Positions 15,001 to 63,006 of a DNA stretch of 64,000 nt are shown here, piece after piece. This DNA comes from Acorus gramineus (lineage: Eukaryota > Streptophyta > Magnoliopsida > Acorales > Acoraceae): positions 1 to 64,000 of the forward strand of contig JAUJYN010000045.1 of assembly GCA_030737835.1 (NCBI GenBank), given 5' to 3'. The notes beneath the pieces are model-generated. The model did not search any database. It saw only the letters and a program-made list of their open reading frames with translations, and was not told the DNA's origin. A program made the position numbers and the translations under genes. Each line of letters opens with the position of its first letter. The stretch's first letter is position 1.

Positions 15001-16680
15001 TTATAGTTTTGGTTTGCTTCAAAATTTGAAAGTGGGGTTTTGCAACCCGTGCTGTATGGCATCACCTGCATGAGAAAAATAATCTCAATTACCTCACCAA
15101 GCAAACAAACCCAAACTACCTCATAAGAAAGTATTGCTCACAAATTAAACTCCCCTCATTCCAGTAAAGTTCCATTCTATTTCATCATATTCTCTCAACA
15201 TAAATTTTACTATTCAAACTCAATTAATTCTGTATATGTTCACCTTTTTTCCTTCTTTAGTTCTTTCTCCCATAGTGACAAACTTCAGCAAAATTTTCAA
15301 GAATTTGTGAACATTATGCAATTCTTTGGTTATCCAAATTACATGGGCATATTAAACCGCATTTAGTGAATTATCATATTATTCAAGACAAATATGGTTG
15401 AAATCTGAAATAATTACAGATTAGTTTTGCATTCATCTTATTATCTAATGGCCCATTTAACAGTCATCTAGTGGTGTTTAATATGGTGATTGAATTAGAA
15501 GAATGACAGATATATATTGTTTATCATTATCATGATATGCATTTTAAATTCTATTAGCGTACAAATTTTTATTTCTGCAATTACATCTATATGTTTAAGT
15601 TTTCTGTAACTTCTGGTAAATTTTTTGCATTGGCCCGTATTTCAAAAATTCCCACATTGCCAGGTTCTTCTCGAATCCCAGTTAGCACTCTCACCCATCA
15701 TGCATTTTCACAGAAAGACAGACTAGTTCAAAGCGGATGGAAATACTGAAACAAACACAAAACCCCAATTCAAGAACCCTCAAACACGATCAAAGCCACG
15801 CCTTTCCATACCTTAAAACCCCAACTTCTGATGAATTCTTATAATTTCAAAAATTCCCACATTTCTGGGTTATTTTCGAATCCCAGCCCATCATTTCATG
15901 CACTTGTTCGACAAAGATGGAAATACTAAAAAAAAAAAAAACAACGCAAGACAATCCAAACATAATCAAAATCATAACTTTCGATACCTTAAAACCCCGG
16001 TAGACCAGACCCTTCTCTGGGTTATTTTCGAATCCCAGCCCATCATTTCATGCACTTGTTCGACAAAGATGGAAATACTAAAACAAAAAAAAAAAAAAAA
16101 CAACGCAAGACAATCCAAACATAATCAAAATCATAACTTTCGATACCTTAAAACCCCGGTAGACCAGACCCTTCTCATAGAGCTTAGAGAAGACCCACCA
16201 GACCCCCTCCATGAAATTGGGGTCCATGGTCTTGTAATCATTCTTGAAGTCGATCCACCTCCCGACCCTCGTGACGACCTTCTCCCACTCGGCGACATAC
16301 CTCGTGACGATGCTCCTGCACTCCTCGTTGTACCGCCCGATCCCCATCTCGATCACGTCCTTCCGGCTGTTGATCCCCAGCTTCTTGTCGATCTCGTGCT
16401 CCACGGGGAGGCCGTGGCAGTCCCACCCGAATCGCCGGGTCACGTGCCAGCCAGACATGGACTGGTACCGGGTGACGATGTCCTTGATCGTGCCGGCCAA
16501 TATGTGGCCGTAGTGGGGGAGGCCGGTGGCGAAGGGAGGACCATCGTAGAAGATGTACTCCGGGAGGTGCTCCGTCCGCTTCAGCTGGGTCTCGAAGGCC
16601 TTGATGTCTTCCCAGAAGGAGAGAATCTTCTCCTCCTCTGATGGGAAGCGGAACTCCTTCCCCTCGCAGACCTCTTCCAT
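1..16680 (-). CDS. IleRS: Cytosolic isoleucyl-tRNA synthetase, 26 exons, 3' end beyond window
   Basis: Class Ia aminoacyl-tRNA synthetase that charges tRNA-Ile with isoleucine in the cytosol. Exons: 16680-16147, 15065-15000, 14914-14771, 14590-14364, 14266-14101, 13363-13250, 12186-12089, 10337-10259, 10089-9931, 9059-8970, 8415-8282, 8157-7998, 7430-7347, 7261-7049, 6943-6818, 4266-4129, 4009-3906, 3822-3759, 3642-3554, 3467-3326, 1504-1441, 1360-1293, 1064-942, 872-807, 275-164, 72-(<1). Reading phase agrees at every junction, giving about 1,145 codons without a stop; the family is near 1,190. Seen: [13 protein letters not shown] (HIGH motif, about residue 50), [11 protein letters not shown] in the editing domain, [12 protein letters not shown], and [12 protein letters not shown] (KMSKS loop, near 8050), followed by the anticodon-binding helical domain ([14 protein letters not shown]). 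The start lies in a perfect GCCGCCATGG context. Exon 1 is markedly GC-rich compared with later exons. No organelle transit peptide is seen, so the cytosolic form is inferred. The introns after exons 6 and 16 appear to begin with GC. Confidence 0.95.
1505..3325 (-). other. IleRS intron between exons 20 and 21
   Basis: 1.8 kb of AT-rich sequence with a T run near 2380-2394. Nothing coding is recognised. The flanking exons (ending ...ISDIK and starting [12 protein letters not shown]) join in phase. Confidence 0.75.
5195..5600 (-). mobile_element. Possible LINE 3' end in reverse orientation
   Basis: A T run at about 5200-5212 is followed by sequence with GGCAAATGCCCAAAG and GATACAAAAGAGG. This resembles the reverse-complemented 3' end of plant L1 elements. 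No reverse transcriptase or endonuclease reading frame can be recognised. It sits within the 2.5-kb intron between IleRS exons 15 and 16. Confidence 0.3.
6160..6315 (+). mobile_element. LINE/SINE-like 3' tail with poly-A
   Basis: A TTTTTGTACAGCC motif is followed by TTTTGCAATAAAATTTTACT and then by a run of about 15 A. This is the form of a retroposon tail with its polyadenylation signal. It lies in the largest IleRS intron. The upstream boundary is uncertain. Confidence 0.45.
10338..12088 (-). other. IleRS intron between exons 7 and 8
   Basis: 1.75 kb, AT-rich, with the L1-like tail at 10540-10690 and short unrecognised frames at about 11290-11660. The flanking exons join in phase (...YRAVPSW then [10 protein letters not shown]), so nothing inside is needed for the protein. 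Confidence 0.7.
10540..10690 (+). mobile_element. L1-type LINE 3' tail fragment in an IleRS intron
   Basis: Shares GAGATCCCTCGTCTC, TTTTGTTTTGAGGGGC and the end CTTCTAATAAGATTGCTCC with the kind of tail also seen at 13780-13965. It lies in the 1.75-kb intron between exons 7 and 8. It is only a non-coding remnant. Confidence 0.4.
12187..13249 (-). other. IleRS intron between exons 6 and 7, GC-AG type
   Basis: The 5' splice site reads GTGAAG|GCAAGA, a good match to the known GC-donor consensus, and the 3' site is AACAG|GCAAAAGG. The joined frame gives [14 protein letters not shown], as expected for the family. No nearby GT keeps the frame. Besides AT-rich sequence, the intron holds a short AAT repeat near 12613-12630. 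Confidence 0.7.
13780..13965 (+). mobile_element. L1-type LINE 3' tail fragment in an IleRS intron
   Basis: Contains GAGATCCCTTGTCTC followed by TTTTGTTCAAGGG and a pyrimidine-rich stretch, closely resembling a second fragment at 10540-10690. The arrangement recalls the 3' untranslated ends of plant L1 elements. No coding part is left. The call rests on the internal duplicate and on memory of such tails, so it is tentative. Confidence 0.4.
15866..16176. repeat. Direct tandem duplication of about 152 bp over the exon 1 donor
   Basis: Copy 1 (15866-16017) and copy 2 (16018-16176) start with the same TGGGTTATTTTCGAATCCC and end with the same CCAGACCCTTCTC. They differ mainly in the length of an internal A run. 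Copy 2 contains the last about 30 nt of IleRS exon 1 and its GT donor, so copy 1 carries a duplicate exon end and donor inside intron 1. A further partial match of the same start (AATTCCCACAT and TCGAATCCCAG) is seen near 15650-15680. Confidence 0.85.
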
Positions 16681-16830
16681 GGCGGCGGAGAGGAGATTAG
16701 GGTTGCGAAAGGGGTGTTGCTAGGGTTTTTGCATATCCTTTTTTGTTTGGAGGGTCTTGTTAGGGTTTTCTCTAGAGAAGATTGTGAAAGAAGGGTTGGT
16801 CTCTGTTTAGGTTGAAAACAAAAAAAAAAA
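16681..16830 (-). promoter_or_regulatory. IleRS leader and proximal promoter with telo-box motifs
   Basis: Immediately upstream of the IleRS start, read on the minus strand, AAAACCCTAG (about 16720-16729) and AAAACCCTAA (about 16760-16769) occur, plus a weaker AACCCTAAT near 16695-16703. AAACCCTA (telo-box) is an established element in promoters and leaders of plant genes for the translation machinery, which fits a tRNA synthetase. No convincing TATA box was identified, and the transcription start cannot be placed by eye. Confidence 0.5.
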
Positions 16831-21679: not shown

Positions 21680-24600
21680 AGGACACTCATGTTGATCTAA
21701 TTTTTAGATATGGAGGGTTTTGGATGATTGATAAAGGCTCAAGAAAAGAACATATAGGTTAGGTAGGCAAAAGAAAATCAATATAAATAAGGATTGCTAT
21801 AACATAAATGATATACTTATGGATATTGATAAGTTCATGCAGTCTGGTCCACAAGATCATATGATCTTGTCATACAAGTTTTTAGATTTTGATCGATATG
21901 CCTTAATTGTGATGTTGATTTGATAAGAATGTTTATTATTCATGAAAAAAAGCACAAAAATAGATGGTTACATAACATTGGAGAAGAATGTGGGAGATTT
22001 TGATGTATTACCTATATCAGAGGAGAATGAAGGATATAGAAGAGTGGCAAATGGTAATTCAGATGGTAGTGAGGGTGGGGATGACAGTGACAGTAACATG
22101 GGTGATTGTAATCCTAATATCTTTGATGGCGCAAGGGATGAGGAAGCAATGGTTGATGCTGATGATGAGCCATTATCACATATGACAGATGAAATAGAAA
22201 CTAGTGAGGGGGGGGGGTTGAGAGACAGAGGGAGAAGGGAAAAGAAGTTCAGAATGAGACAGTGGATAGACAGATAGATTTTGGGGGAAACAAACAGACA
22301 GCAGTTGGTGATGTCAGGCAAACAGATATTGGGGATAGCAGACAAACAGATTTTGGGGATGAGAGACAAACAGAAGCAATGGGAGATGTAGAAGATGGCC
22401 ATGGGAATGAGTGTAGTGAGTCAGGCTATCATGAATTGTATAGCTCTGACATTGCACAATGTGTAATAAAAATTGATTTCTCAGCTGATCACTATGATGT
22501 AGAGGATCCCAACATGAATGTAGGGGTCACATTCCACAGTATAGGGACTTTCAGGGATGCACTAAAACAAAATGCTATTAGGAAGGAGTTTTCTATAAAA
22601 TATCTGAGAAGTGAGCCATCTAGAGTGACAGGCAAGTGTGCAGAAAATGACTATCCTTGGAGGATTCTTGCATTAGTTTTGCATGACAAGGTGACCTTTT
22701 AGATCAAAACACTAAACTCCACACATACATGTTCCTCTATGAACAGAAGGGGTACTAGCATGGCCTCAGCTGAGTGGATTTCAAAAAAAATAATTGATTG
22801 GCTTAGGCATGAAGGTGATATTTCTATTTCGCAAATTAAGAAAAGGTTGCAGAGGACATCTGGACTTGATAATGTCCCATATCATAGGTACTGGAGGGGA
22901 AAGGACAAGTAAAATTTAAAGATTTGGGGATCCTATGAGGATCTATATGCACTGATGCCTTCACTGAGGGCTGAATTGTTGAAAGGAAATGATGGTAGTG
23001 TTGTTCATTACACAGTTGATGATATAGATCATTCTTTTGAGAGATTTTTTGTATGTTTTAAGGCTTGTAGCTCAGGGTTCATTAGTGGTTGCAGGCCATT
23101 CATAGGCCTTGATGGTTGTCATTTGAAGAGTAAATATTTGGGTTTACTGTTGGCAGCAACTACAATGGATTGAAACAATTGATTGTTCTCTGTGGCATAT
23201 GCGATTGTGGAGGGGGAGAACAGAGGTAGCTAGTAGTGGTTCTTGGAGTATCTCTATGAGGCTATTGGACATGTAGAAGGCCTTGTATTTACGTCTGACA
23301 GAGGCAAATGCCTTGATGATGCAATGAAAGTTGTACTCCCAGGGGCAGAACATAGAGCATGCATGAGACATTTATATAAAAATTTCAAAAGAAAATATCA
23401 TGGAGAATACTTGGAGGGATTGGTTTGGTCAGTTGGTAGAGCGTATACACCACAGTGGCATGTAGAACATATGAGGCAGATTGAGATGGTTTCAAAAGAT
23501 GCATACGATTATTTGCTATCTGAGAAAGATCATGCATGGAGCAGGGCAATGTTTGAAGAAACTACAAGATGTCAATACCTCACCAACAACATGTCAGAGT
23601 CATTCAATTTTTTTTTATTGGAGATGCAAGATTCAAGCCAATAATCTATTGCATTGATGCTATCGACAGAAGTTAATGAAAACAATGCATATCAGAAGAA
23701 TGAAAGCTCAAAAATAGACAGGTTGGTTGTGTTTAATCTTAATAACATTCTTTAATTGTTAACTGTGTAACTTTTGTGTGAATAACTGTTATTTGTTACT
23801 TATCTGGACAGGGATTCTTGTTCCAGAAGTTCAAAAATAGTTGAATGAGTTAAGCAAGGGCAATGGCATGTATGATATCTAGAGATCCACAGATGTGAGG
23901 GCAAAGGTTGATGGACCTAAAGGGAGGTTTGATGTGAGGCTGGATGAGAGAATGCAGTTGTAGGCAGTGGCAGGTAACAGGCATACCTTACAAGCAAGCA
24001 TGTTGCTCCAGTTATTTCAACAATCAGAGGTATCAAATGGAAAGATTTTGTGGGCAACCATTACACAATTGATAGATATACAAAAGTACATTACACGTGT
24101 AAATAAAAAATGTTCCTTCATATATGGTTTTAATCAACATTGCATTTGTACTGACAGGTACAAAGCAGCTTATGCCTTAGAAATTTCACCACTACCAGAC
24201 AAATCAATGTGGGAGGCAATTGATTTGACATATACTGTTCTACCATCAAAATGCATAAGACTACCTAGTAGGTCAAAAAAGAAAAAGGCTAGGCCTTTTG
24301 ATGAAGAGACCAGTGGAAGCTCAACAGTGAAGAGGGTTCATAAGTGCAAAAGGTGTGGACAAGTTGGTCATCATAAAAAAAACATGTAAAAACCCAATCA
24401 GAACCAGTGAAGAAAAATTTACTGAAGGCTTAAGGTAAAAGGACCAATTATACATATTTATACTTCTGATAAAGAGACCACTTTACACTACTAATATGAA
24501 CTTTGATTTCACTTATACAGTTCTTAGAAAAGACCTCCAGGAAGAGACCAGCAAAAAGGCATGTCAGAGGACCTCTTTCAGTTGGTAGAGGGATTTCAAT

Positions 24601-26319: not shown

Positions 26320-27190
26320 GAGGAGCTCGGGCTCGGGCAGGATGGCAGGGCAGCAGCAGCAGGCGCAGCAGCAGCAGGCAGGGCCGCTGGCAGGGCGCGC
26401 GCGTGCGTGCGCGCGGGCGTGCGCGCGGGCGTGCGCTCGGGCTGGCGCTGGGCGTGCCTGGTGCTGGGCGTGCAGGGCTAGTCGGGTGCTAGGCTGGCAG
26501 GGCTAGCTGGGTAGGCTGGGAGCAGTGCACCAGTTTGCTGGGCGCGCGAGCGCGTGCGCGCGCGGGCGTGCGCTCGGGGGGTGCAGAGGGAGGTGTGCGG
26601 TGCAGGCTGGCTGCGGGCAGTGGCTGTGCGCGCTGGCAGGCCGGGCGAGCTGGCTGGGCGCGCAGGCGAGCAGGGCAGGGGCGCTGGCGGGCGCAGTCGC
26701 GCGCAGGTGCGTGCGCGCGGGTGCGCGGGTTCGCGCGGAACGGGCGCGCGGGTGCGCGCGGGTTCTGGCGCGAGCGGGGGTGTGCGCGGGAGTGCGCGCG
26801 GGGGCGCGCGGGCGTGCGCGCGCGCGGCCAGTGCGCCTGGGCGCTGGGCAGGGAACCAGTGCGCGCGCGCGCCTGCATGCGCGTGCGTGCGCGTGCTGGG
26901 GCGTGCTGGGGCCTGCTGGGGCAGTGCACGGGGTGCTGCGCGAGGGGCGCGGGCTGGACGCGCGGTGCGCGTGGGCGCGCGCGAGCGTGCGCATGCGTGC
27001 GGGTGCGCGTCTGGGCTCGCGGGCAAGCGCGCGGCAGTGCGCCGATGGTGCCGGGGTGTGTGCGCGCGTGCGCATTCGTGCGTGCGCATGCAGGGGACCA
27101 TGCGAATGGCTGCCCGAGGGTTCGGGTAGGTGTCGGGGCACTCGGACTCGCGTGCGTACGCGCGTGCTCGCATGCGTGCGAGCCCGTATG
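26320..27190. other. Very GC-rich, CpG-dense core of the solo LTR
   Basis: About 870 bp made largely of GCGTGCGCGCGGGCG-like words, in sharp contrast with the AT-rich surroundings. Long open frames run on both strands because A/T-containing stop codons are rare; they show no domain. It may be a degenerate simple array within the LTR. Confidence 0.8.
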
Positions 27191-27767
27191 CATGCTTATC
27201 CGAGTTTTGGGTATTTCTATGCATTTCTATGTATAAATTGTGTGGTTTCTCACCATATTGAATGTCTGTCTTGCAGATCTAGGCGGACGGTCGCGCGACG
27301 ACCCCGATCTCTGGTGAGTGGGACAATCCAACCCAGTAGAGAGGGGTCATACGCATTTGGGCGTATACCGACCTCTCCTGGGGCGCCATGGATAAATATT
27401 AACCTGCAATAATATGTATATCATGCGAGCATGATTTAATTGTAGAATGCATGTTACCCTAGACTTTGCATGTTAGGGACTTGCACCCTTAGGATGTGTA
27501 TGAGCCATGCAGCATGTCCCCTGGTTCCATGTTAGGAAGCCCGGCCGATGCATGTGCCCTACTAGTTTATTTATTAAATTAAATGCTAGTAAATGTCAAA
27601 ATGCATGTTATAGTGAATATTATAGGGGAGGGGCCTTGCGAGGACAGCGGTGAGACCCGGGTTAGGGTACACCGTGTTCCTTGTTTGGTTGTCGGGGTGT
27701 CCTATAGCGGGAACTCACGCTGCCCTCCCGAGTTTCTTTCCCCAACGATATTCCACCCTGTTATAAC

Positions 27768-38944: not shown

Positions 38945-41900
38945 AAAATAAAGGGCCGCTGAAGCTCTGCTTGTACATGACGCCTTGATCAGAAATCAAG
39001 AACCGAGCGGATCGATTCTTAATTTTTCTACCTTCCTCCTTGCCTGGCGAGAGGATGTCGTCTTTTAGATATGACAGGATGGGATCCATCCAAGTCTCTG
39101 TTCGAGGTTCCGAATCTATTGCCATGACGGATTCAAATCGAGTGATGTTTGGTTCTCCCAAAAACTCGACCTGAATCTCATGAGACAGTTCACCTTCTAG
39201 AGCACTGGCCAAATTTGCTAGGGCATCAGCTTGGGTGTTCTGCTCGCGATCGATCGAGTGGATGTTCCAAGCACCGATTTGTGCGAGCAGGGTCGTGCAT
39301 AGCTCTGATAGGCAGCCATGCACTTGTCTTTTGTCTGATACTCTTCAGTACTCTGGCTTACCACGAGATGAGAATCACTGTAGATCACCAATTTACGCAT
39401 GGAGAGATCTACAGTAAATTCCAAACCCACGATCAAGGCCTCATATTCAGCTTCGTTGTTGGAAGCCTTGAAGCCGAGCTTGATCGCATGCTCGAACAGA
39501 AATCTGTCCTCACTTTGTAGGATCATCCCTATTCCTGATTCTCTTCGATTGGACGCCCCATCGATGTGGAGTGTCCAAGAAACTTACCTGAAGTTGGAGA
39601 TGGTGTAGACCTGTTGCTCGGCCGACGTGAGGTCGACAACAATGTCTGCAACCACCTATCCTTTAATTGCATTTTTGGGTTGATAGTGGATATCAAAAGC
39701 TAATAGCTCCACTGCCCATTTCAGCAATCACCTTGCGACATCTGCCTTTCGCAATACGGCCTTGAGCGGCGAGTCGGTGACGACGTGGATTGAATGGGCT
39801 TGAAAATAATGACGTAATTTCAATACAGAAATGAGTAAGGCAAACACAAGTTTCTCGATGTGGGAACACCTGGTTTCTGCCCCATTTAATGCTTTGCTGG
39901 CATAGTAAATTGCACGCTCCCCCCAATCTACGTCCTTCAACAGTGCAAAACTGACTGCATGCTCAGAAGCTGCGACGTAAAGGAGTAGGATATCTCCGGG
40001 AGAAGGGCATACCAGGAGTGGCGGCGTACTGAGGTATTTTTTAATTTCCTCAAACGCCTTCTGAAACTTCGGCGTCCATTCGAACCTCTGAGCATTTCGA
40101 AGCAATAGGAAGAATGATTGGCATCGATCAGTGGCTCTGGAGATGAAACGGTTGAGAGCGGCCAACCTTCCATTTAGCTTATGCACCTCCTTTTTGTTTT
40201 GTGGCGGCTCCATCTCTGTGATCGCCTTGATCTGATCGGGGTTGGCTTCAATTCCTCGCTGGGTCGTCAAGTACCCCAAAAACTTGCCTGAGGTGACTCC
40301 GAAGGAGCACTTCGTTGCGTTAAGTTTGAGGCGGTACCTGCGCAGCATGGCGAAGACTTCCTCCAAATGGGAAAAATGGTTTTTTCTGTGCTCGCTTTTG
40401 ACCATCATGTCGTCAATATAGACCTCCACAGTCTTGCCGATTTGGTGCTAGAAGATCTTAGTGACCAGCCTCTGATAGGTGGCCTCAACATTTTTAACCC
40501 AAACGACATTACTTTGTAGAAATAAATGCCAGTAGGGTTATGAATGCGGTTTTCTCCTGGTCAGGCTTGTACATCGGGATTTGATGGTAGCCTGAATAAG
40601 CATCCATAAAACTCATTAGTTCGTTACCCGATGAAGAGTCCACCAGCTGGTCGATTTTTGGAAGTAGGAAGCTGTCCTTTGGGCTCGCGCTGTTCAAGTT
40701 GGTGAAGTCTACGCACTCCTGTCATTTCTTGTTCTTCTATGGAATCACCATGGTGTTGGCCAGCCAGTCAGGATGTCGCACCTCGTGGATGAACCCGACG
40801 GCCAACAGTCTGTTCACCTCGTCACGTACTGCTTCTGCATGTACTGAGGCCATCATCGTTGCTTCTGTCGGATTGGGTGAATGGTGGGCAAGATGAACAA
40901 TCGGTGATTCGTGACCTCGGGGTTGTTCCTAGCATGTCGCGAGGCCTCCAAGCAAAAACATCCTTATTTTTGACAAGGAGGTCGAGTACCACCCTTTGTT
41001 CCTCGACTAACAATAAACTCTCGACGAGAAAGAATTTCTCGGGGTCAACAGGGTCTATGGGGACTTGTTCAAGGTCTTTTAGAACCCTGTCTTCGGGATC
41101 GGGTCGGCTTTCATCTGCCTTGACTCGGTCCTGAAGTAATTGCTACCTCTTACGATGAATTTCTCCTTCCTCTGACAGTTCTTTGGGCAAGGTTGATTTT
41201 CCCGCCAGCACTGCCATGTAACAACGTCTCGCGGCTACCTGATCCCCTCGAATCTCCATTATCCCCTCGGCTGTGGGGAAATGAAGACGTTGATTATAAG
41301 TGGACATGATTGCCTTCATCGCCGCCAACCACGTGCGCCCAATGATCGCATTGTATGGCGATGGGAGGTCCATGATGGTAAACTCTATCACGGATGTCTT
41401 GTTCCCTGCTCGAACCGGCAACTTGATTCGTTCGGCTGGGATGACTCTCACACCATTGAAGGCGACCAGAGGGTCCTTAGTCGGGATGAGGTCAGCCGCT
41501 TTCAAACCCATCCGAAAGAAGGGTTGCATGAAAAGGATGTCGGCTGAACTTCCTGTGTCGACAAGGATCCTCTTAACGCCAAAGTTAGAGATGTGTAGAG
41601 TAATTACCAGCGCATCAGAATGAGAGGCCTGGATTCCTTCCAGGTCTGCGTCAGTGAAGGTGATGACCCCTTCTTGATCACTCTTTGCTTTCTTCGTGAT
41701 CAGCTTCGGCTCTTGGTCGATTTGCATCATTTCAAAGGAGATTTGCATCTTCTTCGAATTGCGTCGGACACTCTTTGGATTGGCGAAGTGTGGCTCGCCT
41801 CCAAAGATGACGTTGATAGCCCCGGCTGAATTATTGGGGTCAACGTTCATAACATGCTGCTCCTCTACAACTTGGGTCTTCTTGGAGGGCACATATTCCT

Positions 41901-52557: not shown

Positions 52558-52870
52558 TCAAAACTTTACCAATAGATTCTCTCCTCTGCAGTAACAGAAC
52601 TCCACATCACCCTGCAATTGGAAGAGGTCAAGTGAACAATTAGCACACATGAAATAGTTGAAAAAGTTTCTAAACAATTTATAAAATATATTCTTTTAAA
52701 CAATACTTCATACTACACTTGATATTAATAATGAGATAAACAAGAAGCAGAAGTTCTATTCTGTTTTAGTTGAGCCTGGAAACAAATAGGACTTTTTGTT
52801 TTCACTTAGTCAGGGGATTGGGAGGGGGAGGGAGGCGAAGGGCGGTGGGAGGGTGGCGACAGTGGAGATC

Positions 52871-52905
<35 letters not shown>

Positions 52906-55900
52906 ATTCTTTAGTGACAATATATACCAAAAAGGACCCATTTTATTCAAACATGTGATTGGTGTTTTATTTAAAAGCATAACCCTTTTGTTTTTGTGTG
53001 TATATGATCCATGTGGGTATTCAAATAAGTGGGTATTAAAAAACATACCCCTATACTGTTCAAACATATTATTTTAGGGCTTGAATATATAGGTTTCTAT
53101 GGGTGTATTTGTTTAAAAACACAAAACTAAGTTTATTTTTCACCCCACATTTATTTTACTATTATTTGCTCATTGGTTGTAATTATATTGTCTTGGGTGT
53201 TTCCCTTGACCATCTGGTTTAGTAAAAAGACTCTCCAATATTTCCTACCGTAGAATTCCAGAAAATTGTTACATGTCACAATTTATTATGGTTTTTGACC
53301 CCCAAAAACACATTATTTCAAAATGTGGTAAACATGGAGTACATCAACTTATCCTTTTGGATTTCGCTTGATGATGACAATCACTTCAATTCTTATGTAA
53401 GATAAAGGCAATTCCTGTGTAGTATAGGCATATATGAAGGATTAAACACAACTCTGCGTCCTAATGATTAAATCGTAAACAAGTCTACCTTTAGATTATT
53501 ATAATTATAATGGCTCGTTTAGTTTATATTCATATTCATGAAAGAAAAAGACTACATGGTAATCAAACTAAAGCTATGAAATACAAAAATGGTGACATCC
53601 CTAGCAACCAATGAGTAGTGTGTTTTTTTTACTTCTATGTATGTATATAGATAATCATGAAACTAGCAGAAATTTTTTTATTACTCTAAACCATAAAACA
53701 TGTTAACAATTTAGTAACTCCAAAAAAAAAATTACAAATCATATTTAAGGATACGTGTATCTCAATATATGCTTACTTCAAGTTTGAAGTATCAGCTCTA
53801 CTTAATGGTATCTAACTACAACTAAAGACAAAAACAAACAACCCAGATATTCCATTAAGAGGTTGGATTATATAACTTACCCATGTGTTTGGGTTTGAGA
53901 CGGAATTGCCCATTCTTCGGATTTGCTGAAACAAGGGATATGAATATCCTTGGAATAATTTTCTCATGTACCTTTCAGCGTCATCTTTCCCATCAATCAT
54001 TGGACCAATGATACCCTAAAGACAAAAAATAACAACAATTAATTCTACATCATATTGAAAAAAACTTATACAACATCATTGTTTGGAAGCATACCACTAA
54101 TCCTTTTTTGTGTGATGATGGGTGAGGAGATTTCGGAAAAATATTATGAGAATCTATGGTGCGGTCATACTTGAAACAACGTTTGCGATGTTTTTTTTCA
54201 TAATATTTTAAAAGAGCCCCATCAACAGCTGCAGTTCAGTGTTTATTTCTGTTAGAAACAGAGAATAAAATTATTATTAATGGAATCCCTATATTCCACT
54301 TAGGGGTTAGTCCCTTTATATATACAAAGATCTAGGAGTTACACGTGTAATACACTACACACATTATAAGATAACACATATAATCTAACAGCCCTCCTCA
54401 AACTCACGGTGGATCATACAAAGTGAGTTTGCGAAGAAGAAACTGAAATCGAGAAATTGGATGTGATTTCGTAAAGAAATCAGCAAGCTGCTCAGCAGAG
54501 GAGATATGCGGAAGCGATAATGTCTCTGCAAGAAAGTGCTGACGAACGAAGTGACAATCGATCTCAATGTGTTTGGTCCTCTCATGAAAGACCGGATTGC
54601 TAGCAATCTGAATAGCAGACCGGTTATCACAGTGAAGAGGAGTAGGACCAGTCATAGTAACTCCTAGATCCACCAAGAGACGTCTGAGATGAACAATCTC
54701 CTTGGTGGTGATAGCCATGGCTCGATATTCAGCCTCAGTGCTGGAAAGAGAAACAACCTCCTGTTTCTTGCTGCGCCAAGAGATGATAGAATCTCCGAGA
54801 AATATGCAGAAACCAGTGGTGGAGCGTCTAGTCGTCGGGTCTCCAGCCCAATCAGCATCAGTGTAAGCCCTGAGAACCAGAGTCGAAGAGGATGACAGAT
54901 AGATCGATCTAGTGATAGTACCACGCAAATATCTAAGAATTCGCATAAGAGCACCATAATGCACTGATCGAGGAGCCGAGACAAACTGACTAACAATACT
55001 GACGGCATGAGCAATGTCAGGTCTAGTGATGCAGAGATACACAAGCTGACCCACGATCTGTCTGTATCGAGTAGGATCTGAGAGGAGCTCACCATCCGTA
55101 GGACGAAGCTTCACATTAAGCTCCAGAGGAGTATCCGCACTACGGGTATCGGAGAGGGCAGCACGCTCTAAGATGTCAGCTGTATACTTCTGTTGAGAAA
55201 GCAGAATCCCATGATCACTCTGTGCAATCTCGAGACCAAGGAAGTAGCGAAGAGTACCAAGATCTTTCATCTGAAACTGTCGACTGAGGTGATTCTTGAC
55301 CCGAGTAATACCAGCGGAGTCATCGCCAGTTATAATCATGTCGTCAACATACAGAAGAAGGATTACCCGCCCCTGCGATGAGGATCGCACAAACATAGAG
55401 TGGTCCTGGTGGCTCTCAACAAAACCAGCTGTCAGAATAACACTGCGAAAACGCTCAAACCAGGCACGAGGAGCTTGTTTCAGTCCGTATATAGCCCGCC
55501 GAAGACGACAAACATGCTGAGGAGGAGTGCTGAGACCTGGAGGTGGTTGCATATAAACAACCTCAGATAAATCACCATGAAGAAAAGCATTCTTCACGTC
55601 CATCTGAAAGAGAGGCCAGCGACGAACAGCAGCAACAGCGAGAAGGGTGCGAACAGTAGTCATCTGAGCAACAGGAGCAAAGGTCTCCTCATAGTCAATG
55701 CCATACTCCTGAGTGAAACCTCTGGCAACAAGACGAGCCTTATGTCGTTCAATGGAACCATCAGGGCGATGCTTGATCTTGAAAATCCACTTGCAGCTGA
55801 TAGGGGTAACACCATCCGGAAGGGGAACAACATCCCAGGTTTGTGTCTGCTCAAACGCCTGAAACTCCTCAGCCATGGCCTGCTGCCACTCAGGGTACTC

Positions 55901-58900
55901 GACTGCCTCTCGATAAGATCGGGGCTCACGATGGGCATGTATAGCGGTGAGATAGGCCTGAAATTCTGGAGAATAGGTACTCACTGATGCAAAGCCAAAT
56001 CGGTCAAGTGGTCCAGAGTCAAAACTGAAACGATCAGGTGGATGACGTTCACGTTGAGGGTAGCGAGTCAAGGGACGAGGATCCACATCAGAGAGAGGTG
56101 TGTTAGCCGTGGAAGACGGAGTACCAGCGGAGTCATCTGCGGAAGGAGGAAGAGGAGACACAATAGGAGGAGAACAGGGAGGACCATGGGAGTTGGCTGC
56201 AGGAGTGTGAAGAGGAGATGAAGAACCAGAACGGTCAGCAGTGGGAATGCCAAGATGAGACTCAGGGAGAACAGAACTAGGAGTGGGCTCAAGCAGAACA
56301 GACGGCCCGAGAAGAGGTAGAGACTCAATAGGAGAGGCCTGAACAGGAGAAGGCACCGGAGGAGAGGAGGCAGTGGGTGTAGAAGAAAAATAGGGAACAT
56401 CTTCGACAAATGACACATGACGAGCTATCCAAAAACGATCTCCAATAGGATCGTAGCAGCGATATCCCTTGTGTTCAAAACTAATCCCCAAGAATACACA
56501 CTTAACTGACCGAGCGGCCAACTTAGTGCGTTGATGAGGAGGGAGAAGCACGAAACAAGTACATCCAAAAGTGCGAAGTCTACTATAATCAGGTTTGGAA
56601 GAGTAAAGGCGCTCATGAGGAGTCATACCGGAGAGGACAGAAGAGGGAGTGATATTGATAAGATGAACAGATAGAAGAGCAGCCTCAGCCCAGTATGTGC
56701 TGGGGACTGAAGAAGAAAGTAAGAGGGAACGAGCGGTCTCAAGAATATGGCGATGTTTTCTTTCAGCAACACCATTCTGCTCATGAGTATAAGGACATGA
56801 TTGCTGAAAGAGTGCCATGAGATTGAAGAAGAGAACGCATCGTGGAAGAAATATATTCTCGAGCACAATCAGACCTAAAGATTTTGATACGAGTCTGAAA
56901 CTGGGTGTGAATCATAGTGGTAAAGACCTCATATATCTTTGGGACCTCAGATCGATGACGCAATAAATAAATCCAGGTAAAGCGAGAATAGTCATCAATA
57001 AAACTGATATAATACGAAAAACCACTCTTAGACGTGATATGAGAAGGACCCCAGATATCAGAATGAACAAGCTCAAATGGAATAGAGGACTGATGATTAC
57101 TAGAATGGAATGGAGTAGCAACAGGTTTGGCTAATTTACAGCCCTCACAAACAGAAAGAGGAGAAAGAAACATGACCTAAATCACCAGACTTAATAAGGT
57201 CTTTAAGACGAGATTCAGAAACATGGCCTAACCTCTTGTGCCACAAGTCAGTATCAGAGGTGACAGTGCCGCAGAAAACTGAGGGATCAGGTACAGGAAG
57301 ATAAAGATACTCCACATAATACAGTCCGCCAATCCGACGACCAACACCAATCCTCTGCCCTGAACGTGGATCCTGCACAGAACACCCAGAAGAGGTAAAG
57401 GTAATGGTGAATCCAGAATCACACAATCTACTAATAGACACAAGATTCATGCAAAGCTCAGGAGCATGCAAAACAAATGGTAGTGAAAGGCGGCCAGTAG
57501 GGTGGGATGTGGTGGTGATCGATCCACACTGCGTGATGACTAAAGGAGAGCCATTAGCAGTATGAATCGAAGGGAGGTGTGAGGGTGCAGGTGAGCATGC
57601 AGTGAGGATAGAACTATCAGGAGTCATGTGATGTGAGGCACCCGAATCAAAAATCCAATAAGCAGGAGTACCCATAGTAGAAGACAAGGCAAAGGGAGTA
57701 GAAGCACCAGAAAGTGACTGCTGCAGAATCAGGTGGTCTAGGCGCTGACTGATCTAGATAAGCTTATCCGAGTGTGACTGAATGGAGGCAATCGAAGTAT
57801 CAACAGGAGGAAGATGATGTCCTCGGCCTTTCGGTTGATAATGCTGCTTAGAAGGTCGTTGTCTTTTTGTAGCAGGAGCGGCCCCCAAGATGCCCTCATA
57901 GAGAAATGACGAATAGACGACGAGATACCTTCGAAGGCACAGTGTCGGAAGAGTAGGGTTGCCGTTGGTTTCTGACATTGTGCAGAACCACTCGGATGAG
58001 GATCAGAAGTAGACGAGGACGTAGAGCACGAAAAATCGAGCAAAATGGACTCCTGGATCACCTTAATCGGACTTCCGGAGAGGAAGTTATGACCGATTTA
58101 GTGATTTGAAGTCTCAAGGAGGCGGCCGGAGGCGGCAGAGGGCGGCCGGGGGCGGTCGGAGGAGGCAGAGGGCGGTCGGAGACGGCCGGAGGCGGTAGAG
58201 GGCTGCCGGAGGAGCGGCCGGAGGCGGCAGAGGGTTGCCGGAGGAGCGGGCCCGGTTCGCGGATCCGGGTCGCTGGGCCGGGTTCGCGGATCCGGGTCGG
58301 ATCCGGGTCGCTGGGCCGGGTTCGCGGACCCGGGTCGGATGCTGGGAGCGCCCGGGTCGGATGCTGGGAGGACCCGGGTCGGATGCTGGGAGCGCCCGGG
58401 TCGGATGCCGGGTCGGACAGCTCGAGATAGGCTAGCAGGAGCTGTCCCAGCAGATCCCAGGAAATCCCTGCAGGATCCGCGCGACAGATCCCGAGAAATC
58501 CGGATAGTTGCAACCGCGCGGCAGGGCGTGCGCGGCAAGGCGCGTGCGGCAGGCCGCGGCGCGGCAGGGCTGGTCTGGGCGCGACAGGGCTGGGCGAGCA
58601 GCGACAGGGCGGCGCCGGCAGCGGCAGGGGCGGCGCCGGTGACGGCAAGGGCACGACGGCGACGGCAAGGGCACGACGGCGACGGCGACGGCCAGGGCAC
58701 GACAGCGACGGCAATGGCACGACGACGACGGCAAGGGCACGACTGCAAGGGCACGACGGCGACGGTGAAGGATTCCAAAAAAAATAAAAATAAAAAAATA
58801 AAAAACTAGAGTTTTTAAATTTTTAGCTCTGATACCATGTTAGAAACAGAGAATAAAATTATTATTAATGGAATCCCTATATTCCACTTAGGGGTTAGTC

Positions 58901-61900
58901 CCTTTATATATACAAAGATCTAGATGTTACACGTGTAATACAATACACACATTATAAGATAACACATATAATCTAACAATTTCAATTAGTGAGAGGATTA
59001 GGGCTAATCCAAAATTTTTGGATAAATGGTCCATTTAAATATCAGATAGTTTGACATGGATTTCTTGACTTCGACAAAGTTTTGGAAATAAAATATCTTG
59101 GCTTCTAACGACCACATGCATGGCTCATCCTCAAGAAATTGCTTTGGCCTGATCATTAACAAAAAAATCATGAGTCATTTAAACTATATAAAGTAGAATA
59201 TTAATCAAACTTTTTTTTAAAAAAATAACACTGATAAAGAAGCTCACATGATAGAATTTTTTGAATGCAAATGACTTTTCAAAGTCTCGAATAGTTGAAA
59301 ACACTCGTTCTTTGGAGCTATTCCTAGCTTCTGGGCAATGCCTTCCAACACACATCCAACTTCATATAAGTCCTGTCTAGCCTCTTGACAAAAGTTCATT
59401 GCATTACCTAACCAAAAAACACTATTATTAAATTTATGTAAAACAAAATTGGAATATAAAAAAAAAATACTTACCATAAAAAAATATGACATCTAATTTT
59501 TGCACGTGGAAATGACAGTGAAACGATGTAAATTTCATTCTTCAAATTTCCGTGAGCCACGCCTTGGTTGTGTAAATGATCTAATCCGCGCATTGTTTCC
59601 CTGCATAATTAAAAAAAACCATTTAGGAACAAGTGTCCATATTAATGACAAAGGAATCCGAACAAAAATAAGATGCAAACCATATCAACTCTTTCAATTC
59701 AGGTGATAGATCAAAAACAACGCCATTGTAGCGCTTCACACAGTACTCTTTTTGCGCAAACGCCAGCTCATCAATATTGTATAGCAAATCGCTATCATAT
59801 GTGATATAAAATGCAGAAGAACTGATGGCACTCCGATCAATGTGTATTGGGCGCAATATATTCGGGTGTGTAAATTTCTGCATGGCACACCACGGAATGC
59901 ACTCATATTCTTTCCGTACTAAAACTTTTTTTGGATCAGAACAATCCAAGTTCAAGCTTCCCTCGAAGAATCTTCTATGGCAGTGAGTTTTTATTTTGTC
60001 GTATATGTCAAAATGTCGATCTCCAATGGAAATTCGCTCTAAAAAAGGAACAAAAATATAAATATTCAAACACAGATTCAAACAGGATATTCAATGTAAA
60101 CTTAAATTAGCAAATAACACTTAAGAGTTCTGACAGTAAATAAAAATAACTACTACTAATGACTATCAACAAAATCATGGAAAAGTTCATGCAACATGTA
60201 TTAATAAATTTATCAAGAAATAAAGAATAATTGGGTATGGCAACCCAAGCAATCTCCTAGATACTCCTGTTGTTGCCAGGCTTTCTTAAACAGATTGCCT
60301 ACTCTGGAACGCTTGGCTCGCATAGGCCTGGTTTCTGATAGGAATTGCAAGTTCTGCTCTACCAATGCACTGGAGGATATCAGCCATCTGCTCTGGGGAT
60401 GATCTAACTCTCGTTTCTTATGGACTTGGTTGATGAATGCCATTGCCATGTCGATAAGGGATGCTATTCCTAGATCTATGGATAGCATTCCAGCTTGGCT
60501 TGATAAATGTTTCAAAGATCCAGTCCTCAAGGTGATAATGCAGGCCTCCCTCTCCACCACAATATAGTTCATCTGGACCAAAAGGAATTCTCGCATATTC
60601 AAGTCCCGTTCTACTCATAAAACATCGGTGCTAAGTAAAATTCAGCGTTCCATATATAGCAGATTTCAATCTATCAAGTTAAGGGCCATGAACCCTCCTC
60701 AATTCTCCAAAATTAAAGATCGATTTCGCATTCACATTGGTTACCTCCTGAGCAGGGTTGGCACAAACTAAACTCGGATGGCTCTCTCAGTGATGACCGA
60801 GGTGGATATGGGGCGCTTATTTGGGACAGCTCATCACACTACATCAGTGGGATCACAGGTCGTTCTTCACTGCCTTCCATCAACTTGCTTGAGTTGCAAG
60901 GAATTGTTCATGGGGTTCGGCTTGCAATCAATAATTGAGTCCAGAAATTCTGGATCGAATCGGACTCTACCATGGCCATTGCTTGGTTAAAGGGGTAAGG
61001 AACCATTCCTTGGATTGCCTTCCAATTAATCAGAAGAGTGAATTGTCTCCTCTCTCATTTGGCTGATTGGAAAGCATCCCATATACACTGTGAAAGGTAA
61101 TGCTCCAGCAGATCTTCTAGCAGCGTGACGTTCTTCTATGGGCGAAGAGATTGTTGGTCCGCAGGAGCTTACAATAGATATCCGGGAGGTCTTAGCTAAG
61201 GATAAGAATGGTGGCATATACACTCGCACTAACAAAAGATGATTTATTTTATTTTCTTTTGTACAATGCCTACTTTTTGTATTTCTTCAGGTCTTCCACT
61301 GGTGATGGAATGTTTATATCTCCTGAGGGGATGCATGTCGATTCAGTTCGGCAATCTCTCCCTCTTGAGAAATGGACTTCCTAGTGTCCATTATGGGGTC
61401 ATCTTAGAAGGCATATGTTGTAATTATTTGTTTTTTTTTTTGGAATGAATAGAGCTCACCTTACCAATAAAAAAAATTAACTATGCATCCCCAAGGATAA
61501 ACTACTCTTCAAAAAAATGAAGATGAACACCAGTGATTTCATCATATATACGATGCAAACAAATAATGAACTCAAGAGGCATGCATATTGCAAAATTACC
61601 ATTAAAAGAACTACCATTAAATGGAATTTGAATGTGAAGCAACATAGTGCAGTATATCATGTATCCTGAAAAAAAAACACCTTAACAATATTTCTAATGG
61701 ACATGAATTTTTTTGAAGCTTCAATAAACATGTATCTTCTATTTTAAGAAAAATATTTCAAGAAGGGAGGGATCACGAATCGACTCAGACATAAACAAGA
61801 ATAACAGCCAGTGATCCTTCATTTTATGCCAGTTGATCTAAAATATTTACTCGTTAAGGAGAGTGAAATTTAAGGAGAAGAAAAGAGATCTTCATATGGT

Positions 61901-63006
61901 TTTCATCGATCCAGGGAATGCATATGATCAGGTTCCCAAAGAGATTATGTCAAGCTTCAAAGAGATCATGTCAAGCTTTTGAGAAAAACAAGTATCCCAT
62001 AATTATATCGATGTATGGTGAAGCTACGAAGAGATAAAATAGTTGCAAGGGAGACAATGCATTTTCTATCACATGTTTATACCAAGTGTCAACGTTGAAC
62101 CCTTACTGCTTCCAATAGTTATCTAGGCATGCATGCCCAGGAGGTGGTTTCTTGCTGTATGTTGTTTGCTGATGATGTTGACTTACTTGATTACACTAAA
62201 AAAAACAACTTAACACTAAAATAGAAAGATTGACAGAGGATAAAAAATAATTAAGGTGAATACAGAACATATGGAAATTTTTGTTTTTTTTTTTGACAGA
62301 AAAAAGTTGGATAAGATCTATATGGAATATAATTTTGGCAATAAAAAAAAAACATAAATGATGGAATAGTCAATATTATTGGACAACAAATACCTAAGTG
62401 TCAGCGGTTTCACAATACAACATTCATGAGCAAGATGAGATTAAACAGCATGCCATTTATAGAATTAAGGGAGGAATATTAGAGTGGAAGAGTGCTCCTG
62501 TAATATTATAGGCCATCTACGAACCTAAAAGAAATTTATATAAAGTATACATAATCTCAGAATTGATTTAACGGTCAATATTAAGAAACTATGTGTGAAG
62601 AAAGTGTAGCTGAGATGGTAAATGTTAACTGAACGAGTGGCAAGACCAGAAAGAAGAGAATAAGCAATGAATTCATTCATGAATTAAATGATAATAAAAT
62701 AAAATTATATAAAAAAAAAGAAATAAAAGATTTTACCTAGAATTGGAGGATGTCCAGCATTCCTTTTATAACGAAGTAATGCTTCTTCTTGCAAACCTAT
62801 TATATATTGTGAAGAATTTAGTTGGAGAGTAATTAACAATAAAAAAAAACCTTATTTTAAAAAAAAAATGTCTTACTTCGATTGCATTTTTCTGGTTCAA
62901 TCTGATCTTGTGGTCGAGTCTGATCGGGTGGCTGAGTCTCATTGTGTAAAAATCGAGAGCGAGAGATACATACGAAGAAGCGAACATGACGTCTAAACAG
63001 CAACAT
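52558..63006 (-). CDS. Kinase-like gene, possible IRE1-type pseudokinase with divergent KEN domain
   Basis: Nine exons placed by splice signals and phase: 63006-62877, 62796-62737, 60038-59681, 59600-59475, 59421-59248, 59148-59056, 54228-54095, 54015-53881, 52611-52558 (TGA at 52560-52558), about 420 residues. An in-frame stop lies just upstream of the ATG. Exon 3 gives GSLNLDCSDPKKVLVRKEY (beta-3 Lys region) and FTHPNILRPI; exon 4 gives GLDHLHNQGVAHGNLKNEIY, a kinase catalytic loop with HRDLK replaced by HGNLK; no DFG was seen; exon 5 gives RQDLYEVGCVLEGIAQ (kinase F-helix region). Exon 6 (EPCMWSLEAKIFYFQN) resembles the KEN-domain start of IRE1 and RNase L. The KEN catalytic RNK..H was not found. 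That the domain is a kinase fold is likely; the IRE1/KEN link is weak inference. The exon 6-7 junction is one base out of phase with the obvious sites, so the gene may be a pseudogene or that border is misplaced. Confidence 0.6.
52873..52903. repeat. (CT)n microsatellite
   Basis: About 15 CT units in the last intron of the kinase-like gene, preceded by a G-rich stretch (52810-52860). Confidence 0.95.
54250..54390 (-). repeat. 3' LTR of the young Copia element
   Basis: 141 bp, TGTTAGA...TCTAACA, near-identical to 58838-58978. Confidence 0.95.
54404..57687 (-). pseudogene. Copia pol region
   Basis: Parts from right to left: protease (FDSGASHHMT, about 57640); pre-integrase (LWHKRLGHVS, about 57230); integrase core (CEGCKLAKP, SDIWGPS and, further on, HEQNGVAERKHR); a Pro/Ser-rich linker; reverse transcriptase (WIFKIKHRPDG, FQMDVKNAFLHG, LLLYVDDMIITGDD near 55340); and RNase H (DWAGDPTTRRSTTGF, STEAEYRAMA, LADFFTK). 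The longest open stretch is 820 codons (56866-54404). It belongs to the element, not to the host. Confidence 0.92.
58100..58770. other. GC-rich low-complexity block in the young Copia element
   Basis: Lies between the primer-binding site and the protease region, where leader and gag would be expected. It is made of short drifting repeats: GGCGGCCGGAGGCGG (58110-58250), CGGGTTCGCGGATCCGGGTCG (58250-58400, several copies), GGTCGGATGCTGGGAG (four copies), and GACGGCAAGGGCACGACGGC (58640-58760). Long open frames on both strands result from composition; none carries a domain. Confidence 0.8.
58838..58978 (-). repeat. 5' LTR of the young Copia element
   Basis: 141 bp, next to the TGGTATCAGAGC primer-binding site. 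Confidence 0.95.
60225..61480 (+). mobile_element. L1-type LINE, 5'-truncated 3' end, in an intron
   Basis: Begins within a reverse-transcriptase zinc-binding region (zf-RVT: RLARIGLVSDRNCKFC, LEDISHLLWGCSNSRFLW, about 60300-60430). It continues with a plant-type RNase H (KLNSDGSLSDDRGGYGALIW near 60770, LLELQGIVHGVRLAINN, WIESDSTMAIAWLKG) and ends in a non-coding tail with CAATAAAAAAAATT near 61470. The RNase H frame is interrupted by at least one stop (after LAINN). It lies antisense in intron 2 of the kinase-like gene. No clear target duplication was found. Confidence 0.82.
61855..62660 (+). mobile_element. RTE-type LINE reverse transcriptase remnant
   Basis: Decayed frames give LHMVFIDPGNAYDQVPKE, close to the RTE consensus MVFIDLEKAYDRVP; then a region around TGTTTGCTGATGATGTTGAC (the FADD box); then VNTEHME, KYLSVSGF and RVARPERRE in the order known from RTE elements. 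Many stops and frame changes are present. It lies in intron 2 of the kinase-like gene, antisense, next to the L1 piece. Confidence 0.7.

Follow-up and report, generated by a model that had tools for sequence, protein, structure and literature searches.

The locus considered here lies at positions 52558-63006 (minus strand) of a 64,000-nucleotide stretch of Acorus gramineus DNA, which is the start of contig C83 (JAUJYN010000045.1) and is referred to below as the window; the genome searched comprised 398.6 Mb. Kinase-like exons are followed there by exons resembling the KEN ribonuclease domain of IRE1, and the question that arises is whether they form a functional gene. The initial annotation described a nine-exon, sensor-less relative of IRE1 and RNase L with a pseudokinase domain. 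Our analysis leads to a different picture of its condition: the window copy is not a working nine-exon gene, but a pseudogene split by a transposon and damaged by a stop codon in the KEN region and by frameshifts. With a probability of roughly 85%, we regard it as a pseudogene copy of an IRE1-derived gene, in which the exons found encode neither a lumenal sensor nor a membrane anchor, the kinase is a pseudokinase (HRD Asp replaced by Asn) and the KEN domain is diverged. Moreover, and beyond what had been claimed for this locus, it is one of many tandemly multiplied copies.

Copia insertion within the KEN exon

Seven of the nine exons described earlier were recovered with GT/AG at the intron borders (the ends of exons 5 and 8 were moved by one base, by eye, on the basis of the flanking sequence), while the remaining two, exons 6 and 7, proved to be a single interrupted exon. 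The features of the locus, in the order of transcription, are as follows (exon numbers are those of the initial annotation).

62877-63006, minus strand: exon 1, with ATG at 63006; 43 residues, charged and proline/glutamine-rich, with no clear signal or membrane segment
62737-62796, minus strand: exon 2, found also near four other copies (86-91% identity over 22 query residues; 91% for the window itself in the same search)
60206-61480 (approximate limits), plus strand: 3' fragment of a long interspersed nuclear element (LINE) within intron 2, with zf-RVT and RNase-H-like pieces
59681-60038, minus strand: exon 3, kinase N-lobe and hinge; an open frame, 97-98% identical to three other copies
59475-59600, minus strand: exon 4, which holds the catalytic loop HGNLK and lacks DFG; an additional nucleotide lies close to the donor
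59248-59407, minus strand: exon 5, kinase C-lobe (DLYEVGCVLEGIAQ), with GT/AG borders
58979-59148, minus strand: exon 6, DEPCMWSLEAKIFYFQNF, which forms the 5' half of the KEN exon and has an additional T near 59035
54250-58978, minus strand: Copia-type long terminal repeat (LTR) retrotransposon (4.7 kb) within the KEN exon, with RVT_2, SH3_retrovirus and rve domains
54095-54249, minus strand: exon 7, the 3' half of the KEN exon; TGA at 54236-54238, -2 and -1 nucleotides
53881-54015, minus strand: exon 8, C-terminal KEN region (GIIGPMIDG...YMRKLFQGYSYPLFQQIRR), with GT/AG borders and an IRE1-like upstream intron
52558-52611, minus strand: exon 9, GDVEFCYCRGENLLVKF followed by a stop, like the C-terminus of KEN in the IRE1 of this genome

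The Copia element is bounded by LTRs of 141 bp each (54250-54390 and 58838-58978), which are 97.9% identical, and is flanked by a 5-bp target duplication, ATTTC (54245-54249 and 58979-58983). In an uninterrupted close copy, C5:17381493-17381816, both flanks of the element make up one open frame which runs through RNLLTHHH. The element therefore sits within a coding exon, and exons 6 and 7 are its two halves and not separate exons. It follows that the original exons numbered eight, and that no single frame encodes the protein of about 420 residues predicted from nine exons. This Copia junction recurs at 88k, 174k and 207k of C83 (5' side of the exon) and at 80k and 202k of C83 and C5:17356k (3' side). 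Each of these was seen on one side, and the pairing of 88k with 80k and of 207k with 202k relies on their order along C83, which gives four further copies. On the simplest reading, the insertion would have come first and the duplication after it.

The transposon is not the sole source of damage. The extra T near 59035 shifts the frame of the KEN 5' half relative to C5:17381k and the 207k copy, and is common to the copies at 91k and 177k. In the 3' half, the TGA at 54236-54238 replaces a conserved KEN tryptophan (TGG to TGA), and the loss of two and of one nucleotide puts the RNLLTHHH (Rx4H) motif out of frame. The first of these losses recurs in the copies at 80k, 202k and C5:17356k, and the second in the 80k copy. 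The TGA is absent from all three of these copies, and is therefore younger than the Copia insertion and duplication. In comparison with the 91k copy, exon 4 of the window ends with an additional nucleotide, which breaks the frame into exon 5 and accounts for the one boundary, exon 4/5, described earlier as inconsistent in phase. In every one of the five copies aligned, the frame is broken at least once between exon 3 and the KEN exon.

We also observed that the end of exon 4 (59475-59525) contains a dense block of changes relative to all four aligned copies, as if it had been converted from another paralogue.

As a result of the Copia insertion, the TGA and the frameshifts, the window copy has no open frame extending across all exons with an uninterrupted KEN exon, nor does it carry in frame the R-N-x3-H (Rx4H) motif of active HEPN/KEN ribonucleases. 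Because of the KEN stop, the frameshifts and the lack of an in-frame Rx4H motif, it has to be considered a pseudogene. Judging from its sequence, it probably makes no working protein; exons 1-4 could at most yield a truncated piece of the pseudokinase. The reported absence of a signal peptide and membrane segment was upheld: the highest 19-residue Kyte-Doolittle mean in exons 1-4 was 0.57, with no long hydrophobic segment, and neither the lumenal sensor nor the transmembrane segment of IRE1 proper was found in these exons as modelled.

Divergence and history of the copies

When the genome was searched with the joined exons of the window at a threshold of E<=0.01, at least 87 matches (the window's own included) were obtained, with identities of 27-98%. 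They fall within 52-260 kb and 826-860 kb of C83, within 17.21-17.38 Mb of C5 and, on C7, at 14.27 Mb. Such recurrence means that the feature is more than a product of chance. Exon 3 was found in at least 25 distinct places, including the window, with a stop within the matched stretch in 17 and none in 8, although these counts are rough, as matches can extend beyond the exon end. The LINE fragment of intron 2 is likewise present at four other copies, with 98.4-99.5% identity to an approximate query sequence.

The regions C83:826-860 kb and C5:17.227-17.237 Mb form parallel arrays with equal spacing of matches; the distance between the exon-3 and exon-5 matches is 656 bases at both C83:826729 and C5:17234166. 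Relative to C5, C83 may represent another haplotype or a segmental duplicate.

Exons had diverged more than introns in all ten pairs of the five copies compared (exon 3 to the KEN half; e.g. 21/803 vs 5/307 between the window and the 91k copy). Once the densely changed end of exon 4 had been removed, this was true of nine pairs, the exception being the window and the 91k copy (10/753 vs 5/307). It should be noted that the pairs are not independent and that the intron differences number only 0-5. In exon 3 of the recent copies there are 1-2 changes of each kind, too few for the ratio of nonsynonymous to synonymous divergence (dN/dS), while two KEN pairs of a side clade on C5 and C83 gave values of 0.69 and 1.07. 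At the level of sequence, no purifying selection is visible among the recent copies.

Several observations can nevertheless be set against this picture of decay. Second changes in exons 7 and 8 of the window restore the frame that is lost in some relatives; exon 8 is 11 + 1 = 12 nucleotides shorter than in the 90k copy, with the frame kept. In exon 3, the window and the 91k copy differ at 3 of 120 codons, two of the differences being silent, which is too few to exclude constraint. For the deep clades, dN/dS of 0.42 (KEN) and 0.58 (exon 3) fits older constraint, these values being uncertain because dS exceeds 1. One could therefore imagine a working gene in which alternative splicing mends the exon 4/5 phase (an alternative donor, AGAT|GTCATA, would do so), the Copia element and its flanks are spliced out, and the compensated changes (-2/-1 and -11/-1) keep the frame, the product being a pseudokinase whose KEN is dead as an RNase and which serves as a decoy or in regulation. 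The open exon 3, with its high identity to three other copies, would also suit this explanation. However, the only donors visible by eye in the exon 6 half (GTCGAA and GTCAAG) are weak and the frame of this half meets a stop, the exon 7 half has TGA at a conserved tryptophan and belongs to a single exon in uninterrupted copies, and the exons outpace the introns in divergence. We consider a working gene improbable, and a decayed copy by far the better account of the locus.

Two distant KEN exons, C5:16177460-16177961 (L037) and C5:16920856-16921352 (L038), are open, with proper splice sites and a phase-0 intron, and in both cases the next exon fits the end of KEN (YVRHKFSRILNYL and YIRSRIPNFYLTL). 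From their sequences, these two may be living members of the family. In the stretches fetched around them, no tblastn match to kinase exon 4 was obtained at E<=0.5, and matches to exons 3 and 5 at the same threshold had stops, lay on the wrong strand or were located downstream of the KEN start. In L038, a stretch resembling exon 5 had been chosen by eye and was not recovered by tblastn.

Kinship with IRE1

The catalytic loop HGNLK and the lack of DFG, both noted earlier, were confirmed in the window copy, which does not carry the HRD and DFG catalytic motifs of IRE1 proper and whose kinase thus looks inactive. The HRD Asp is replaced by Asn (HGN, HLN or HEN) in all 11 exon-4 matches covering it in the stretches fetched, and in two more copies, at 844k and 257k of C83, the HRD stretch itself is broken. 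The place of DFG is taken by IRC in the window, IGG in four aligned near copies, and IGDRT in the copies at C5 17228k and C83 844k, where the position of the Asp is kept and the rest of the motif is not. Because these changes extend across copies, kinase activity was probably lost in the family as a whole, before the window copy began to decay.

The postulated descent from the kinase plus KEN part of IRE1 was borne out by the hits of a PDB sequence search, by shared introns and by a motif. In the search with the joined exons of the window, IRE1 occupied places 1-13 among the best 60 of 62 sequences at E<=1, with whole-sequence E values of 1.4e-4 to 1.2e-3, the next kinase having 0.16; among PDB sequences, similarity to IRE1 is therefore above that to other kinases. 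The alignment to IRE1 consists of two stretches in matching order: first the region of the catalytic loop, then the start of KEN (DEPCMWSLEAKIFYFQN in the window, HPFFWSLEKQLQFFQD in IRE1).

The genome has its own, ordinary-looking IRE1 (C10:12783893-12785647), the sole gene that matched the Pfam KEN model in a genome-wide search. The two introns compared with it, exon 3/4 and exon 7/8, both agree in position and phase, as would be expected of a kinase-KEN unit derived from IRE1: a phase 2 intron is shared by W|ETMRGLDHLH (family) and R|DVVSGVVHLH (IRE1), and a phase 0 intron by LV|GIIGP, together with |KIIGN and |SIIEK of two distant members, and ELQ|EILGP (IRE1). The placement of exons 6 and 8 at the start and end of KEN also proved sound, and extends to exon 9: they contain the W in DEPCMWS, YMRKLF..YPLF, and FCYCRGENLLVKF, which resembles CREDDCFRKYF in the IRE1 of this genome.

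The KEN exon of relatives has the pattern W...W...FRNLLTHHH. In five family KEN exons, four of which are 28-39% identical to the first, RNxxTH (the HEPN Rx4H motif) is invariant, and the complete set of invariant positions is W13, W60, H76, Y83, F93, R95, N96, L98, T99 and H100. A relative at C5:17235044, which reads FHNLVTHTH and has two stops, is an exception. R-x4-6-H is described, in the available text of PMC3710099, as the RNase motif of the HEPN superfamily, which includes KEN. An alignment of profiles (hhalign) of the five family members and four IRE1 KEN sequences covered 135 columns with a score of 22.3 (E 3e-4), and the best of 60 column-shuffled controls scored 12.05.

Taken separately, several of the searches count against a link with KEN. 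Each of the two stretches aligned to IRE1 is weak alone (catalytic loop 14.6 bits, E 0.16; KEN start 7.9 bits, E 17), and the hhalign probability is just 17.6%. The profile search proposed in the initial annotation gave no match to the Pfam KEN model (Ribonuc_2-5A, PF06479), either in the window exons or in the relatives' KEN exons searched, and on the kinase side it yielded Pkinase, although only below the cut-off (E 5e-4 and 6.3e-4; Pfam, with separate exons and joined copies). A phmmer search of PDB with a composite KEN sequence found nothing at E<=10. AlphaFold2 models lent no support, the mean predicted local distance difference test (pLDDT) being 45.1 for the KEN piece and 40.6 for exon 3 (five sequences each), and no fold search was made, because models with such low pLDDT give meaningless matches. 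The lack of Pfam and PDB matches for KEN and the low hhalign probability would suit a diverged receptor-like or other plant pseudokinase without KEN, its KEN likeness being due to chance, but to this we attach hardly any weight, given that IRE1 tops the PDB search, that the arrangement of exons and introns in KEN agrees, as does the HEPN Rx4H motif, and that the best shuffled control reached about half the real score. KEN ancestry is supported at the sequence level by order, introns and motif together, and by no single search.

Other features of the window are listed below.

16078-16719, minus strand: exon of a class I transfer RNA synthetase (tRNA-synt_1, E 2.4e-64), which we take to be isoleucyl
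23237-23644: piece of a Mutator-like element (MULE) transposase
39728-40447: reverse transcriptase/RNase H stretch (RVT_1, RT_RNaseH), presumably of the Gypsy type
26478-27412: arginine/alanine-rich region with several frames open on both strands

Relation to known systems

The locus may be regarded as resolved: it is a dead copy, in which the Copia insertion would have preceded the local duplications and the TGA stop would have arisen later. The intact ancestor would have been a soluble protein whose pseudokinase, like that of RNase L, served as a dimerising scaffold for the KEN RNase. The tandem family might have expanded and decayed in the way defence genes often do. A much more far-reaching idea, which we put forward tentatively and with more doubt than confidence, is that a plant counterpart of RNase L exists in this genome or did so until recently: soluble, sensor-less and IRE1-derived, with a dead kinase as scaffold and an RNase motif invariant across deep clades (28-39% identity), its copies multiplying and dying out in tandem arrays like immune genes. 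The window copy would then be its fossil, and the KEN exons at C5:16177460 and C5:16920856 might still work. If true, a pseudokinase-KEN family outside the unfolded protein response, with its RNase motif constant and its kinase dead, would make the proposal of defensive plant KEN RNases (PMC3710099) directly testable.

Vertebrate RNase L combines an inactive kinase with KEN. The present family shares this architecture, and differs in that no ankyrin 2-5A receptor was seen in it; RNase L was not among the best 60 of the 62 PDB sequences (E<=1) in the window exon search.

Plant IRE1, as represented by the C10 copy, has in common with the family the kinase-KEN order, the positions and phases of two introns, the W at the KEN start, RN(x3)H and the C-terminal end of KEN. 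It differs in having HRDLK, SDMG and a KEN domain above the Pfam cut-off, whereas the family is present in many copies, has HGN, HLN or HEN and no DFG, shows no sensor or membrane exon in what was found, and carries an additional intron close to the end of KEN (exon 8/9).

In the literature searched, expansion of plant KEN domains was met in PMC3710099 only and sensor-less IRE1C in PMC6883098 and PMC6788458, though further publications may exist. According to the parts of these papers available, Arabidopsis IRE1C is an IRE1 paralogue without the lumenal sensor (PMC6883098, PMC6788458), which is transcribed, retains the transmembrane, kinase and RNase parts, and shows 46% identity to IRE1A and 41% to IRE1B (PMC6883098). 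The loss of the sensor is thus shared, while the present family is far more diverged and has lost the HRD Asp. A lineage-specific KEN expansion in monocots such as rice, for which a role in defence was suggested, is reported in the available text of PMC3710099. It resembles our case in the many diverged KEN copies per plant genome, with Rx4H kept in several; the difference is that KEN is described there as separate from the kinase, whereas here kinase-like exons precede it. As far as these texts go, both KEN expansion in monocots and sensor-less IRE1 are already known in print, and the family described here is a further case.

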